Positions 17,687 to 46,858 of a stretch of DNA of 64,000 bases are shown here, piece by piece; the stretch's first letter is position 1, and the number at the start of each line of letters is the position of its first letter. The stretch is taken from positions 1-64,000 of IMG/VR virus record IMGVR_UViG_3300044678_002668; one strand, 5' to 3'. The translations under genes were made by a program, and so were the position numbers. The notes under the pieces are model-generated. The model made no database searches. It was given only the letters and a program-made list of their open reading frames with translations, and was not told where the DNA came from. Origin of the DNA: a virus.

Positions 17687-17744
17687 GTAATGGATTACGA
17701 ATCTCATTTTGAGACAGAGTGCGTTGTGCGCACCAAGTAAAAAG

Positions 17745-17952
17745 AAAGGGGGCACTGTTAAGGCAGAGTGTTTTAGTAAAGGGGGCACTGTTAAGCTTAC
17801 ACACTCGCGCAAGAAGAAACGCGTTACGCGCATGAAGGGGGCACTGTTAAGAAAATAATTTTGTTTCAATTTGAGATTATTTAATTATATGAGTATGATA
17901 TTATTTTTTATTCCCTTCCCTTGGTTTGATTCAGATTAGGGGCAGTGTTAAG
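17745..17952 (+). repeat. Iteron-like direct repeats
   Basis: Three nearly identical copies of AAGGGGGCACTGTTAAG lie at about 17745, 17778 and 17834. A fourth, degenerate copy (AGGGGCAGTGTTAAG) lies at 17938. All are in the same orientation, interspersed with short GC palindromes (GTTGTGCGCAC, CGCGTTACGCG) and followed by very AT-rich DNA. Directly repeated sites beside an AT-rich stretch are typical of iteron replication origins, but a repressor-binding array is equally possible. This stretch (17690-18160) has no supported gene. Confidence 0.6.
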
Positions 17953-18011
17953 TATCAGATTGATATTTAGCTAGGGGATTAGTGTTTTCGCATAATCAAA
18001 TCACTATCTTT

Positions 18012-18036
18012 TCTCTCCTCATTCTCTCTCCTCATT
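18012..18036 (+). repeat. Tandem pyrimidine repeat
   Basis: TCTCTCCTCATT occurs at 18012-18023 and again at 18025-18036, inside a long C/T-only tract next to the iteron-like array. Such strand-asymmetric tracts accompany some origins. Function inferred only. Confidence 0.4.
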
Positions 18037-18163
18037 ATCCTTCATTTCTCATGTCCCTGACAGTAGGTATAATAACTTATATCCTAAATATAAATAATAA
18101 TCATACTTAATCTTTGCCCGACCCGAGTCGTTCCGCAGGGTTACGCCACACGAAAAAAATCGT

Positions 18164-18193
18164 TTGACACGACCGGCGGCTCGGTGCTATTCT
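18164..18193 (+). promoter_or_regulatory. Rightward sigma70-type promoter
   Basis: TTGACA (18164-18169), an 18-base G+C-rich spacer and TATTCT (18188-18193) lie 58 bases upstream of the ATG at 18251. The -10 box is identical to that of the leftward moron promoter, so this control region fires outward in both directions. Confidence 0.65.
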
Positions 18194-18250
18194 GGTTTTG
18201 GTCGGCCGCTCCCTCGCACTAATTAAGCCCGCTCTAATAAGGAGGTTGTT

Positions 18251-25556: not shown

Positions 25557-25569
25557 GGAGTATGTGCCA

Positions 25570-26283
25570 ATGTCTAAGTTCCAATATAAGTTCCTCATGT
25601 TAACCTTTGTAATATTGTTCTTTCTATTAGGCCTTAAGGCAGGAGCTACTGGCGACCAAGTAAAGGTATTGGTGGTGGATGGAGAGCTTCCCTATGGGGC
25701 GTATAAGAAGAATGGAGGGGTGTCTTGTGGTATGGCTCCCATTACAGAACCCTTTTATCCTAATAACGAAACTGTTAGACATGCCCTTAACATTGCCTTA
25801 ACCATTAGTCAGGATAATGATGGGGTATGTGTGGATGTTATGCCTCTCTACACCACGTCCAGTAATGCCGATAAGGGGGGATGGGAATATGATGGGGACC
25901 TCTATCATGCCGCCCTTAAGGCTGGTCTTAAGTACGACATTGTACACCTGTCCTTGGCTGGAGATAGGGAAGCTTCCATTGAGAAGCGTCTCATTAAGGA
26001 TTTAATTAAGTCTGGAGTCATTGTGGTGGTTAGCTCAGGTAATTGTGAGGAGAATGTTGAGACATGTAAGAAGGTACAATGGCCAGCTAACTACATTCGA
26101 GAAGAGGTCTTTAAGAACTCTAATAGGTTCGTAGTGGTGAGAGCTAAGAGCGTATCTAATAATCTGGAATATGAGGATGTGGCCTTCACTGAGAAAGCTT
26201 GTAGCCATCCTAGAGGCATGACTAAAGGAATGTGTGGGAGTAGTCAAGCCGCTGCTTGGTATACAAGGAAGCTCATTCCATGA
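25570..26283 (+). CDS. Secreted subtilase-like (S8) protein, degenerate
   Basis: A 237-residue protein from ATG 25570, nine bases after AAGGAG; GTG 25564 is also possible. Residues 5-27 form a signal peptide or anchor. Subtilase-like landmarks appear in order: VLVVDGELPYG (candidate Asp), ETVRHALNIALTIS (candidate His, but without the usual HGTH), VIVVVSSGNCEEN (oxyanion Asn region, normally AAGN) and CGSSQAAAWYT (candidate nucleophile in G-x-S-x-AAA). It is shorter than typical subtilases and the His motif is altered, so activity is uncertain. The many cysteines (at least seven) suggest disulphides and an extracytoplasmic location. Confidence 0.6.
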   Translation: MSKFQYKFLMLTFVILFFLLGLKAGATGDQVKVLVVDGELPYGAYKKNGGVSCGMAPITEPFYPNNETVRHALNIALTISQDNDGVCVDVMPLYTTSSNADKGGWEYDGDLYHAALKAGLKYDIVHLSLAGDREASIEKRLIKDLIKSGVIVVVSSGNCEENVETCKKVQWPANYIREEVFKNSNRFVVVRAKSVSNNLEYEDVAFTEKACSHPRGMTKGMCGSSQAAAWYTRKLIP

Positions 26284-27094: not shown

Positions 27095-27252
27095 CTAATT
27101 TAGAATACAATATGTGGGATGAATGTAATGTTATATCTGAACATAATGTTTGGGTAGAACACACTACTCCTGAAAATAGAAATCATTTTCAAGCTTCTTT
27201 TACAAGTAACTGGTCTTGGTGGATTATGAAAACAGGGGAATATATTACATGA
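27091..27252 (+). CDS. Micro-gene F7, 53 residues
   Basis: Starts with GTG overlapping the F6 stop. Rich in Asn, His and Trp (FTSNWSWWIMKTGEY). ATGA-coupled to the next gene. Unknown function. Confidence 0.5.
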   Translation: MTNLEYNMWDECNVISEHNVWVEHTTPENRNHFQASFTSNWSWWIMKTGEYIT

Positions 27253-27584
27253 AATACGAAAAGTATAAAGATTTCACACAGTTAACAGGATCGTTAGAGG
27301 ACATTGCTCTTGGTCTTGAGGATGAGCTAGTTAATGTGGACATTAAAGTCAAGCGTAAGAACTTCTTGGAGTGGTTGGGAGGAGATGAAGTTATCCTAGA
27401 ATCTGAATGGCCTCTTTATTGGGGCTCATCCTTTACTCTTAAAGGAGTATTGGAACCTCAAGAAGGAACCTGGGAAGTGGAGTTAGCGGTTACTGAGGGG
27501 GGAGATGAGGTGAGTGTATACGATATGGGGAACACTCTCTATTCCTACTTAGACGAACTCTTATCAGATTACACTAATACGTGA
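27249..27584 (+). CDS. Hypothetical acidic protein, 111 residues
   Basis: ATG 27249 in an ATGA overlap with F7; a longer in-frame start exists upstream but overlaps F7. A strongly acidic, beta-rich product (LEDIALGLEDELVNVDIKV; GTWEVELAVTEGGDEV). Last gene before the structured RNA region. Not recognised. Confidence 0.6.
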   Translation: MKYEKYKDFTQLTGSLEDIALGLEDELVNVDIKVKRKNFLEWLGGDEVILESEWPLYWGSSFTLKGVLEPQEGTWEVELAVTEGGDEVSVYDMGNTLYSYLDELLSDYTNT

Positions 27585-27596
27585 CATCCTGTTTAT

Positions 27597-27991
27597 AGCT
27601 ACCCTTGCGCTTCGTGCTTTTAGGCACTACGCTTTTGGCGTTTGCTTAGATACACTAACCCTATTACGGGACTTTAAGTTACGCCGTTCCTTTTGGGAAC
27701 ATTGGCGGGACATATAGCTTAGAACCCTTATGGGTTCAGTCTAGGGTGGCTTATGCCACCGAGCTGTTCAAGAGGGTAGAGCCTCTCTAGGGTAGTATGC
27801 CCAGCTCTTGACCACCTGTGGTTAGGCTAGTAGAATATATATCTACAGTCGGTTAACCTAACTCTTTGGGCGGGCCTTGCGCCTTCACTATATGTCCAGG
27901 TTCAGACCCTTGATTGTCCTTTAAGAAGGGGCACTAGTAGTCTAACCTGTTTGGCCTGGCCTCATTAGCTTCGGCGTCTAATGGGTAGGTC
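27597..27991 (-). ncRNA. Large structured non-coding RNA, candidate new class
   Basis: About 395 bases without a supported gene fold into at least a dozen helices. CTACCC at 27599-27604 pairs with GGGTAG at 27983-27988 and closes the ends. A ten-pair helix, 27708-27717 with 27888-27897, encloses a multi-branch core. A second bulged helix of about ten pairs joins 27898-27907 with 27940-27948. Local hairpins are at 27614-27627, 27629-27641, 27682-27707, 27722-27737, 27745-27760, 27771-27786, 27830-27846, 27869-27883 and 27963-27983. On the minus strand the loops are A-rich (AUAA twice, CAAAA twice); on the plus strand they are U-rich. Together with the motif just upstream at 28008 this favours minus-strand transcription. 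Not a tRNA, tmRNA, RNase P or group I intron by motif. Size and location recall phage GOLLD/ROOL RNAs; no homology is claimed. Confidence 0.7.
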
Positions 27992-28007
27992 TTACTATTA
28001 TTGTAAT

Positions 28008-28018
28008 ATTATTTGTTA
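28008..28018 (-). promoter_or_regulatory. Recurring leftward motif, copy 4
   Basis: TAACAAATAAT on the minus strand, 17 bases upstream of the first base of the structured RNA when read leftward. No leftward protein gene lies nearby, so if the motif is a promoter the RNA is its product. Confidence 0.5.
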
Positions 28019-28053
28019 CTTAAGTAAAGAATAAAAAGAGTAAAAGGAGTGAC

Positions 28054-28245
28054 ATGATTATCTTAGATTACTTTGATGGGTCTCTTATTAAAGAGTTAAG
28101 ACGAGAGATTAAGAACTTACAATTTCAACAAGAATATATGAAACAGTTTGAAGATATTTATGTAGGTACTCGAGACAGTTTTTTAAGTATTGGAATAAAT
28201 TATATTTCTGACCATTATAAGAGGTATATGGATACATGGTTTTAA
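28054..28245 (+). CDS. Micro-gene H1, 63 residues
   Basis: It has a good AAAAGGAG site. Acidic start, a basic helix (KELRREIKNLQFQQEYMKQF), then RDSFLSI and an aromatic end. The RDSFLSI segment and about 25 residues after it align with H3. It overlaps H2 by ten bases. Confidence 0.6.
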   Translation: MIILDYFDGSLIKELRREIKNLQFQQEYMKQFEDIYVGTRDSFLSIGINYISDHYKRYMDTWF

Positions 28246-28418
28246 TCACAAATGAACTTGGATTTTATAACCACTATCTAAAACATACAGATGGAGATAT
28301 TCCTGCTGAAGAAGATAGTCCAATCTGGTATTATTTTTTTGGTAGTGATAGGGATGGTATGCTAGTATCTCATTCATATTTATGGGAATTTATTAAAGAA
28401 CATATGGAGACTATGTAA
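28236..28418 (+). CDS. Micro-gene H2, 60 residues
   Basis: Overlaps H1 by ten bases. Acidic, aromatic product (EEDSPIWYYFFGSDRDGMLV) with a C-terminal helix. The spacing of the aromatic block and end helix resembles the other micro-genes. Unknown function. Confidence 0.55.
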   Translation: MVLITNELGFYNHYLKHTDGDIPAEEDSPIWYYFFGSDRDGMLVSHSYLWEFIKEHMETM

Positions 28419-33940: not shown

Positions 33941-36748
33941 GTGAATCCAAGCAACAAGATTCTCTCAGACATCACCGCCTTTACTAAGTATGCTAAATAC
34001 TTACCTCATCTAGGACGACGAGAAACCTTGGCAGAAACCATTAACCGCTGTATGTCAATGCACCTGGATAGGTTTTCTCATCTGTCTTATGACATCACTA
34101 AAGCCTTTCAACGGGTACATGATTTGCGCGTTATGCCTTCCATGCGTTCCCTTCAGTTTGCAGGAGAGGCCGTATTAAAAAATCCAGCCCGTCAATATAA
34201 CTGTTCCTACACTCCTATTAACGACACTAAAACTTTTAGTGAGGTTTTGTTTCTTCTTCTGTCTGGAGTCGGTGTGGGGTTCTCTGTTCAACGAGACCAT
34301 GTAAACCAACTTCCTAAAATCACAATGCCCAAAGAACAAGGTCTTTATGTTGTGCAGGATTCCATTGTGGGATGGGCTGAAGCTCTTAATACTTTAATGG
34401 AAGCTTATTTCTTTGGAAAGATTAAGCCAGAATATGATTTCTCACAAGTACGTCCTAAAGGCTCATATCTCGTCACCACGGGTGCTAAAGCTCCTGGCCC
34501 TGAGCCCCTTAAGTACATGCTTAAAACAGTGGAGGGAAAGCTATTAGAAGCAATGGGACGTAGGCTAAAGCCCATTGAAGTACATGACATTGTATGTATT
34601 ATTAGCGATTGCGTTCTTTCTGGAGGTATTCGTAGGGCTGCCCTTATTTCTGTATTTGATAGAGACGATATGGAAATGCTAAAAGCTAAGCATGGAGAGT
34701 GGTGGGTTAAACATCCCTATAGAGCTAGATCAAATAACTCTGCCGTTCTTCCTTATGATAAGGTCACTAAGGAAGAGTTCTTTGAAATTTTTAAAATCTG
34801 TCAAGACTCTAATTCTGGAGAGCCTGGATTTAGTTGGACCAATAACACAGATTGGTCTTTTAACCCATGTGTATCAGGTAACACAGAAATTCTAACTCGT
34901 AATGGATACGAGCGTATTGACTCTGTTGTAGATACTGAAGTGGAAGTTTGGAATGGTTTTGAATGGTCTAAAGTAACTCCTAAAGTAACAGGCACAAACC
35001 AAGAAATGCTTACCATTACTTTTAATAACGGCATTTCACTAGAGTGTACTAAATATCATAAGTTCCATATTGCCACTAACTACACGGGCGGAGTTAAAAT
35101 TGTTGAGGCTAAAGATCTTGAGCCTGGAATGAAGTTAATCAAACATGAATTTCCTATTATTGAGCATGGAAAAGTTTTAGAAAACGCTTATACACAAGGA
35201 TTTGTGTCAGCGGAAGGGATGGATAATTACAAATTTTGTTGGGTATATGAACCTAAAAAAATGTGTATTGAACGGTTAAAAGAAAACGCTTCACGAATTA
35301 GTGAAGAAAGTTTTGGAAGAGTTTCTGTACATTTTAAAACAGCTCTTCTTCCAAAGAACTTCGTGCCATTTGAATATAATCTCAAATCAAAACTAGATTG
35401 GTTGTCTGGATTATTTGATGGAGATGGGTGTGAGCTAAAAGAAGGAGGCTTGCAATTAACTTCCATTGACAAGCAGTTTCTTCTAAATGTTCAAAAACTT
35501 TTATCCACTGTGGGAGTTTCTTCTAAGGTAGTGGCTGGAATGAAGGCTGGACTAAGAAGTTTACCAGACGGTAAAGGAGGACACAAAGACTTTAATTGTC
35601 AAGAAGCTTATAGAATCCTTGTAGGATCTGTACAAATGCAAAGCTTAAAAAAGCTAGGACTTTCTTGTGAGCGTCTCAAGTTTGACAAGTCTCCTCAACG
35701 AGACGCTTCACAGTTTGTGTCTGTAGTGGATGTTGTTGATTCTGGAGTGGCAGAAAAAGTATATTGTTTTAACGAGCCTAAAAATCATACAGGAATTTTT
35801 GGTGGAGTTATTACAGGACAGTGCCATGAGATTGCACTGAATCCCAACCAGTTTTGCAATTTGTCCACAATCAATCAATCTAATATTAAAGATAAGCGAG
35901 ACTTTATGAATAGGGTTCATTCAGCCACGCTTATTGGAACTCTTCAAGCGGCTTATACAGACTTCCATTATTTGCGTCCTATTTGGCGAGAGCAAACAGA
36001 ACGTGAGGCTTTGTTGGGTGTGAGCTTTACTGGTATTGCTGATGGTACAGGTATTGTTACAAACGAATGGCTAAAAGAAGGAGCAGAGTTCGCTAAAGAG
36101 ATTAATCTTAAATATGCTAAGAAGCTAGGAATTAACCCAGCGGCTCGCATCACCACCACTAAACCAGAAGGCACTAGCTCTTGTATTTTAGGATCTTCTA
36201 GTGGTGTACATGCTCGTCATGCTCCATATTACATTCGCCGTATCCGAATGAATAAAGACGATGCTCTAGCTGTATACTTACGAGCCATGCTACCAGACTT
36301 GGTGGAAGACGATAAGTTTTCTTCTACTGGAGTAGTGGTTAGTATTCCACAAGAAAGTCCAAAGAACTCTGTTATTAGAAATGATGAGACGGCGTTTACA
36401 CTATTCCAGCGTACTCTAGATTACAATACTCATTGGGTACGTAATGGGCATCGCTATGGAGATAACCACCATAATGTAAGCGCCACCATTTCAGTACGTC
36501 CAAATGAATGGGACACTCTTAAAGAACAAATGTGGGAGAATAGGTATTCCTATCATGGCATTAGCTTACTTCCATACGATAATGGAACTTATGTACAAGC
36601 TCCCTTTGAAGAGTGTACGGAAGAAAAGTATAATGAAATGATGACTCTTGTTAAAGAAGTAGACCTCACTCAAGTAAGGGAAGAAGAAGATAAAACTACC
36701 AGAGCTGAAGAATTAGCTTGTGTTGGCGGTGTTTGCTTGGTAGAATAA
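33941..36748 (+). CDS. nrdJ: Class II (cobalamin-dependent) ribonucleotide reductase with intein
   Basis: A 935-residue precursor; removing the intein (residues 310-627) leaves 617 residues. It reduces ribonucleotides to deoxyribonucleotides using adenosylcobalamin. Family features are VMPSMRSLQFAG, the redox cysteine in YNCSYTP (Cys88), the junction motif FNP-CHEIAL, the thiyl cysteine in NQFCNLSTIN, KPEGTSSCILG, and a C-terminal redox pair CVGGVC. The extein product is somewhat short for monomeric class II enzymes. GTG 33941 lies six bases after AAGGAG. The insertion splits a conserved catalytic-domain motif, a typical intein site. Confidence 0.9.
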   Translation: MNPSNKILSDITAFTKYAKYLPHLGRRETLAETINRCMSMHLDRFSHLSYDITKAFQRVHDLRVMPSMRSLQFAGEAVLKNPARQYNCSYTPINDTKTFSEVLFLLLSGVGVGFSVQRDHVNQLPKITMPKEQGLYVVQDSIVGWAEALNTLMEAYFFGKIKPEYDFSQVRPKGSYLVTTGAKAPGPEPLKYMLKTVEGKLLEAMGRRLKPIEVHDIVCIISDCVLSGGIRRAALISVFDRDDMEMLKAKHGEWWVKHPYRARSNNSAVLPYDKVTKEEFFEIFKICQDSNSGEPGFSWTNNTDWSFNPCVSGNTEILTRNGYERIDSVVDTEVEVWNGFEWSKVTPKVTGTNQEMLTITFNNGISLECTKYHKFHIATNYTGGVKIVEAKDLEPGMKLIKHEFPIIEHGKVLENAYTQGFVSAEGMDNYKFCWVYEPKKMCIERLKENASRISEESFGRVSVHFKTALLPKNFVPFEYNLKSKLDWLSGLFDGDGCELKEGGLQLTSIDKQFLLNVQKLLSTVGVSSKVVAGMKAGLRSLPDGKGGHKDFNCQEAYRILVGSVQMQSLKKLGLSCERLKFDKSPQRDASQFVSVVDVVDSGVAEKVYCFNEPKNHTGIFGGVITGQCHEIALNPNQFCNLSTINQSNIKDKRDFMNRVHSATLIGTLQAAYTDFHYLRPIWREQTEREALLGVSFTGIADGTGIVTNEWLKEGAEFAKEINLKYAKKLGINPAARITTTKPEGTSSCILGSSSGVHARHAPYYIRRIRMNKDDALAVYLRAMLPDLVEDDKFSSTGVVVSIPQESPKNSVIRNDETAFTLFQRTLDYNTHWVRNGHRYGDNHHNVSATISVRPNEWDTLKEQMWENRYSYHGISLLPYDNGTYVQAPFEECTEEKYNEMMTLVKEVDLTQVREEEDKTTRAEELACVGGVCLVE
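34868..35821 (+). other. Intein with LAGLIDADG homing endonuclease, unusual C-terminal Gly-Gln
   Basis: 318 codons, from Cys310 (block A: CVSGNTEILTRNGYERI) to Gln627, followed by the extein Cys. The block B-like segment ends in CTKYHKFHIAT. Two dodecapeptide motifs, AYTQGFVSAEG and WLSGLFDGDG, mark a DOD homing endonuclease, and GIFGGVITGQ forms the C-terminal block. Canonical inteins end in His-Asn; this one ends in Gly-Gln. A few active inteins ending in Gln are known. Confidence 0.85.
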
Positions 36749-46141: not shown

Positions 46142-46858
46142 ATGAGAGTGAAAGCAAAAAAGCAGCCTAAAATTTTGGTTATTGGAGATACGCATTTTCC
46201 AGCGGCGGATCAAAGGGTTCTAGAAGCCATTTACAAAGAAGCTCAGGAAATGAAGCCTGACTATATTGTACAGCTTGGAGACCTATATGATTTTTTCTGT
46301 TTCTCTAAGTTTGCTCGATCTCTTAATTGGATGACTCCAGAAGAAGAGATTAATTTAGGACGAGAACAAGCTGAAGAGTTTTGGAAACGTTTACAGAAAG
46401 CTGCTCCTAAAGCTCAGTGTTACCAGCTTCTTGGAAACCACGATCAACGTTTATTAAAACGAGTGTTAGATAAAGTTCCAGAGCTTGAGTCCATTATGTC
46501 TGCTCAAAAAGAACTGTTTAACTTTTCTAAAGTCACTAGCATGAAAGATGCCACTAGTGAACTCATCTTAGGGGATATCCTCTTTATTCATGGATATAAG
46601 AGTGGGCTTGGTGCTCATATGCGCCGCAATGGTAAGAAGACTGTAGTGGGTCATTCCCATCTTGGTGGCGTAGTAAATGAGAAGTTTCTTGGTTCCGTAT
46701 TGTGGGAAGCCAATGCTGGCTACACTGGAGACCCTTCTCAACCAGTGTTTAAATATGGAAGTCAAGACACTGACAAGTGGACTCGCGGCTATCTCACTAT
46801 TGATGAGAAAGGTCCTAAGTTTATTTGTCTAGAAGACCAACTCTACAAGGGGAAATAA
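46142..46858 (+). CDS. Calcineurin-like metallophosphoesterase
   Basis: A 238-residue protein with the metallophosphoesterase motifs in order: IGDTHFP, LGDLYD, LGNHDQR, IHGY and GHSHLG. Phage members of this family hydrolyse nucleotides, nucleic-acid ends or cyclic nucleotide signals. Encoded directly after the polymerase, it is probably a DNA-metabolism or anti-signalling enzyme. AAGGAG is too close to ATG 46142; GTG 46148, two codons in, has ideal spacing. Confidence 0.85.
   Translation: MRVKAKKQPKILVIGDTHFPAADQRVLEAIYKEAQEMKPDYIVQLGDLYDFFCFSKFARSLNWMTPEEEINLGREQAEEFWKRLQKAAPKAQCYQLLGNHDQRLLKRVLDKVPELESIMSAQKELFNFSKVTSMKDATSELILGDILFIHGYKSGLGAHMRRNGKKTVVGHSHLGGVVNEKFLGSVLWEANAGYTGDPSQPVFKYGSQDTDKWTRGYLTIDEKGPKFICLEDQLYKGK

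Follow-up and report, generated by a model that had tools for sequence, protein, structure and literature searches.

The DNA analysed here (the window) comprises positions 1–64 000 of the IMG/VR record IMGVR_UViG_3300044678_002668, a virus record of 79.5 kb. Its genes include those for a terminase, a portal protein, a family A DNA polymerase, a DnaB-like helicase, a B12-type ribonucleotide reductase (RNR), a MoxR-like ATPase with a companion protein and a T7 gp16-like virion protein, and because of this gene set the source is taken to be a tailed phage, probably podovirus-like. In this uncultured phage genome positions 27597–27991 form a 395-base gene-free stretch, flanked by very small genes that run as a block on the plus strand (Table 1). 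Between 27585 and 28053 neither strand has an open reading frame (ORF) of at least 40 residues, in agreement with the initial annotation, which had seen no supported gene here. The upstream ORF has no family in Pfam or PHROGs and the downstream gene has none in PHROGs; no recognised RNA-binding family was detected among the proteins adjoining the element (Pfam, PHROGs). The GC content of the element is 0.48–0.49, compared with about 0.3–0.4 in its AT-rich neighbours, and T predominates over A on its plus strand (AT skew −0.22).

Table 1. Coordinates of the candidate element, its predicted parts, the flanking genes and members of the R2 family. Positions are those of the window unless a contig is named.
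Feature	Position	Strand	Remarks
Candidate structured noncoding RNA, whole	27595–27992	minus preferred (predicted)	No ORF; z-scores on both strands; unpaired A
P1 closing helix, 5′ arm	27983–27988	−	CUACCC; pairs with 27599–27604
P1 closing helix, 3′ arm	27599–27604	−	GGGUAG; pairs with 27983–27988
Multibranch core domain	27708–27897	−	Closed by long-range helix of 10–11 bp
Hairpin GAACCC-AUAA-GGGUUC	27722–27737	−	Pair probability 0.98–0.99, both strands
Hairpin GGUGGC-AUAA-GCCACC	27745–27760	−	Pair probability 1.0, both strands
Hairpin GUAGA-UAUAUAU-UCUAC	27830–27846	−	Pair probability 0.80–0.97
Hairpin GUUCC-CAAAA-GGAAC	27686–27700	−	Pair probability 0.99 on minus
Promoter-like TTTACT-17-TACAAT	28000–28028	−	9/12 matches
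Upstream small gene, 122-residue ORF	27216–27584	+	Stop 12 nt ahead of element
Downstream small gene, 63 residues	28054–28245	+	AAGGAG ribosome-binding site
R2 members	L228:6712–6898, L233:5517–5693, L238:9401–9597		
R2 members	L243:1276–1435, L263:4283–4483, L285:895–1067		
R2 members	L303:598–811, L101:12316–12524, L152:13564–13752		More members exist

Many very small plus-strand ORFs (40–65 residues) surround the RNA between 24669 and 30544, and a similar array is present in the related contig L175. A subtilase-like secreted protein is encoded at 25564–26283, with related proteins in L175, G011 and G013. The RNR gene (33941–36748) carries a LAGLIDADG intein; the RNR of a syntenic relative is intein-free. 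At 17700–18250, three direct repeats of AGGGGGCACTGTTAAG together with a near copy are followed by a second ORF-poor region, which has pyrimidine-rich CTCTCTCCTC repeats and, at about 18115–18215, a foldable stretch rich in GC; this locus could be an origin of replication or another RNA.

All of the helices and loops that had been proposed for 27597–27991 are present, with coordinates and pairs exact. The end-closing helix P1 (on the DNA plus strand, CTACCC at 27599–27604 with GGGTAG at 27983–27988) has a pair probability of 0.97 on the minus strand and 0.85 on the plus strand. The long-range helix that closes the core pairs GGACATATAG at 27708–27717 with CTATATGTCC at 27888–27897, and on the minus strand the minimum-energy structure of the core is identical to its centroid. 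Hairpins 27722–27737 and 27745–27760 do share one loop, which reads UUAU on the plus strand and AUAA on the minus strand; the two CAAAA loops described with them on the minus strand were recovered at 27629–27641 and 27686–27700. The loop of hairpin 27830–27846 contains the self-complementary AUAUAU.

Folding against shuffled controls bore out the proposal of structure: the whole region was more stable than all of its shuffles (0/100 equally stable), with z-scores of −3.9 on the plus strand and −4.6 on the minus strand. For the core (27708–27897) the values were −4.0 and −5.6, respectively, again with no equally stable shuffle (0/200). Perfect hairpins, defined by a stem of 5 or more and a loop of 3–6, number seven in the element, compared with a shuffle mean of 1.7 (seven was reached by 0/500 shuffles); the mean of genome windows is 3.1, so that the count of the element is only about 2 s.d. 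above it. The ten-pair long-range helix exists as claimed but by itself is not significant, because a perfect 10 bp arm occurred in 21/200 shuffles. When the genome was scanned in 418 windows of 190 nt, with 20 shuffles each, four had a better best-strand z-score than the core and no other window reached −4 on both strands. The stability of the element alone is thus not unique in the genome; the element is distinguished by a combination of features, namely that it is noncoding, has raised GC, is dense in hairpins, has a nested architecture with a closing helix and folds well on both strands.

Relatives in IMG/VR were reached via the portal and MoxR proteins, and 13 long and many shorter records were fetched. 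No homologue was found in these portal- and MoxR-related virus records by blastn, nhmmer --max or a covariance model (R1, built from the single sequence of the core, 27708–27897). The best syntenic relative, L175 (gene order p225, MoxR, VWA-like, subtilase-like, lipoprotein-like, RNR), has no such RNA at the corresponding place, and the element is absent from three MAG contigs of related phages. Searches of plasmids (PLSDB) gave no match, and IMG/VR scans using the translation of one frame of the region and a 16-base pattern gave nothing or chance matches. The single INPHARED blastn match, 38 nt in phage CF8, lies inside a 3.2 kb CDS and was judged to be chance. The scans reach close relatives only, and distant homologues in unsampled records would escape them. 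The element is an orphan among the collections searched, and the homologues from which covariation was to have been read were found in none of them. Related phage contigs of 81–88 kb (L210, L211 and L212) occur in MAGs labelled Bacteroidales, Flavobacteriaceae and Proteobacteria, and are probably misbinned; these labels are unrelated to each other and gave no host assignment.

GC-rich noncoding gaps of the relatives were considered as sites of the same RNA, and those examined proved to be other RNAs (R2, intron-like and others). R2 (alignment A6, model R2) is a phage RNA family with strong covariation in 24 sequences. It folds into a three-way junction, in which the closing helix P1 covaries freely and is joined by one arm (GGCGUG-GGAAGC-UGUGG...CCAC-UGGAGA-CACGC) and one hairpin; the core is GGCGUGGGAAGCUGUGG...CCACUGGAGACACGC and the hairpin has a loop such as AGUCGCG. 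In the alignment of 24 sequences 95% of cells are paired, both partners vary in 9/9 P1 pairs and the covariation score reaches 0.518, compared with at most 0.105 for slid controls; the P1 ends were picked by complementarity, which favours P1, whereas P3, not so picked, has changes on both sides in 4/5 pairs. R2 lies between genes, often a few bases past a stop codon and ahead of a Shine–Dalgarno sequence, and is sometimes in tandem (G004, G036); no member is present in the window. One member had no match in Rfam 15 at E 10 and, also for one member, none in INPHARED by blastn; seven loci of relatives, several with R2 members, had no gathering match in Rfam. The family was looked up in the literature by core sequence only and may be known under another name. 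It is probably more important than the RNA of the window itself.

Two further kinds of RNA-like region were seen in the relatives. At L150:2016–2347 (G004:62016–62347, minus strand) an intron-like, A-rich structured RNA is followed by a GIY-YIG-type ORF; the gene that it splits is continuous in relatives, and the RNA has no Rfam match at E 1. GC-rich noncoding regions of 0.5–1 kb lie upstream of the terminase gene at L162:1727–2306 (G019) and G004:82400–83700 (also in L025 and L026), with up to 89% identity between two phages and purine/pyrimidine GAGAGAGGAGAG repeats; the region in L162 has no Rfam match.

Strand cues were calibrated on 24 covariation-supported RNAs of other phages. The A-rich loops from which the minus strand had initially been argued are a sound cue, the proportion of unpaired A being higher on the true strand in 24/24 controls (mean difference 0.16), and here it is 0.49 on minus versus 0.22 on plus; total folding energy, for which the true strand was the lower in 23/24 controls, opposes minus (−149 kcal/mol for plus versus −135 kcal/mol for minus, lower by 14 for plus). 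The core z-score favours minus, as a cue that was uninformative among the controls (lower on the true strand in 11/24). From the promoter-like site 28028–28000, transcription would begin near 27993, adjacent to P1; five such sites were found in the region versus 4.5 expected, and only the position of this one is suggestive. No terminator was found on the minus strand. Unpaired A, core z-score and promoter-like site thus favour minus, and energy and operon context favour plus, the control-family RNAs being co-directional with their flanking genes in most members; we lean slightly towards minus as the predicted strand. A plus-strand structured RNA between two genes of an early polycistronic transcript, which may shape mRNA processing, stability or translation or may be excised as a stable RNA, is somewhat unlikely. 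It would suit the flanking genes, all of which are on plus, the lower total energy of that strand and the likeness in placement to the R2 RNAs, which lie between stop codon and Shine–Dalgarno sequence and are mostly co-directional with their neighbours. However, on plus U would make up 45% of the unpaired bases and A 22%, opposite to what the control RNAs show, and the z-score of the core is weaker on plus than on minus.

That the stretch is a non-functional, GC-rich foreign insertion or relic, its folding being the tail of a distribution, appears improbable. Its orphan status, its absence from the syntenic relative and the similar z-scores of other windows in the genome are all compatible with such an origin, but whole-element z-scores of −4 to −4.6 on both strands, a hairpin excess unmatched in 500 shuffles and an end-closing helix placed at the GC boundary argue against it. 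More improbable still is an element that works as DNA, in which clustered inverted repeats would act in duplex or single-stranded form, for example as a replication or priming site. The shared helices are Watson–Crick and fold well on both strands, and the two strands are balanced in G and C, as would be expected of such an element; yet it contains no iterons or direct repeats, iteron-like repeats occur elsewhere (17.7–18.0 kb), no GC-skew switch occurs at the element, and a nested architecture with a closing helix is better suited to a folding RNA than to hairpins in DNA. An intron of group I or II, intact or as a relic, would fit the size and could have escaped Rfam, but is scarcely credible, as no gene is interrupted (the upstream ORF ends first and all three frames downstream are closed by stops), no endonuclease ORF lies inside the element and, by inspection, neither strand has the AGACUA/UAGUC P7 pair, so that a group I intron was rejected.

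The reading that we prefer, with a probability of roughly 40%, is an independent noncoding RNA of the phage, about 395 nt long and probably on the minus strand, transcribed from the promoter-like site and with the predicted fold as its RNA body. It draws on the lack of an ORF, z-scores of −4.6 and −5.6, the 0/500 hairpin shuffles, unpaired A, the promoter-like site and the GC content. Against it are the lack of a homologue, the absence from the syntenic relative, the missing minus-strand terminator and a plus strand lower by 14 kcal/mol; the 3′ end would also extend, in antisense, into the upstream gene. Transcription on minus from 28028–28000 would be opposite to the surrounding early genes, and P1 would join both RNA ends. 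The helix of 10–11 bp would close the multibranch core, in whose arms lie A-rich loops (AUAA in two hairpins) and a single palindromic loop, and two more arms beyond the core would present CAAAA loops. In the folded body the A-rich loops might dock via tertiary contacts, and the AUAUAU loop may pair with a second copy, like the kissing loops of ROOL and GOLLD (PMC12286853). This loop is a lead only, since a palindrome in a 7 nt loop can arise by chance. The RNA particle could bind a host or phage factor during infection.

Searches of Rfam 15 returned no match in the whole window at the gathering threshold and no relevant match in 27300–28300 at E 10 with permissive filters. The covariance-model check that had been proposed therefore gave no family for the element, even at E 10, and GOLLD, ROOL, OLE and the other Rfam 15 families were set aside; tRNA and tmRNA were rejected likewise (ARAGORN 0 genes, no Rfam match). 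This miss is only moderate evidence, or weak where introns are concerned, as the intron-like RNA of G004 likewise escaped Rfam. The initial description as a highly structured RNA of unknown class holds for structure, noncoding character and lack of an Rfam family, but no homologue was found in the collections searched. The element probably represents a hitherto undescribed kind of structured RNA. That it is the first known member of a new ornate phage RNA class, with its own minus-strand promoter, compact, perhaps self-pairing and unrelated in sequence to GOLLD and ROOL, is unlikely.

Few large phage RNAs are known so far. ROOL and GOLLD often lie near tRNA islands and assemble as homo-oligomers of RNA only, through kissing loops and A-minor contacts; of these assembly features the element shows only the palindromic loop and A-rich loops, read from sequence alone. 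ARAGORN found no tRNA in the window, and the tRNA-island feature of ROOL and GOLLD is missing. Both RNAs, as solved so far, form RNA-only cages in which kissing loops operate (PMC12286853). Like ROOL, a nanocage RNA of phages and prophages, the element is long, phage-borne, noncoding and self-contained with a dense multibranch fold, but it has no sequence or covariance match to ROOL, has no tRNA island nearby and measures about 395 nt versus 659 nt for the solved example (PMC12286853). With GOLLD it shares the character of an ornate, phage-borne noncoding RNA, but again there is no match, and many GOLLD RNAs exceed 800 nt and have a conserved 3′ half (PMC12286853). The lack of sequence kinship to either RNA noted initially was upheld, but the placing of the element in the same size class was generous, as it is smaller. 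R2, too, is a structured RNA of related phages that lies between small genes, but is 134–226 nt long with a conserved GGCGUGGGAAGC...GGAGACACGC core, and its model does not match the element (best match in the window 9.8 bits, E 0.61, at 46665, far away). If transcribed, the element would be another large phage RNA, unrelated to GOLLD and ROOL, and the further structured RNAs outside Rfam in related phages suggest that this phage group is an unmined source.
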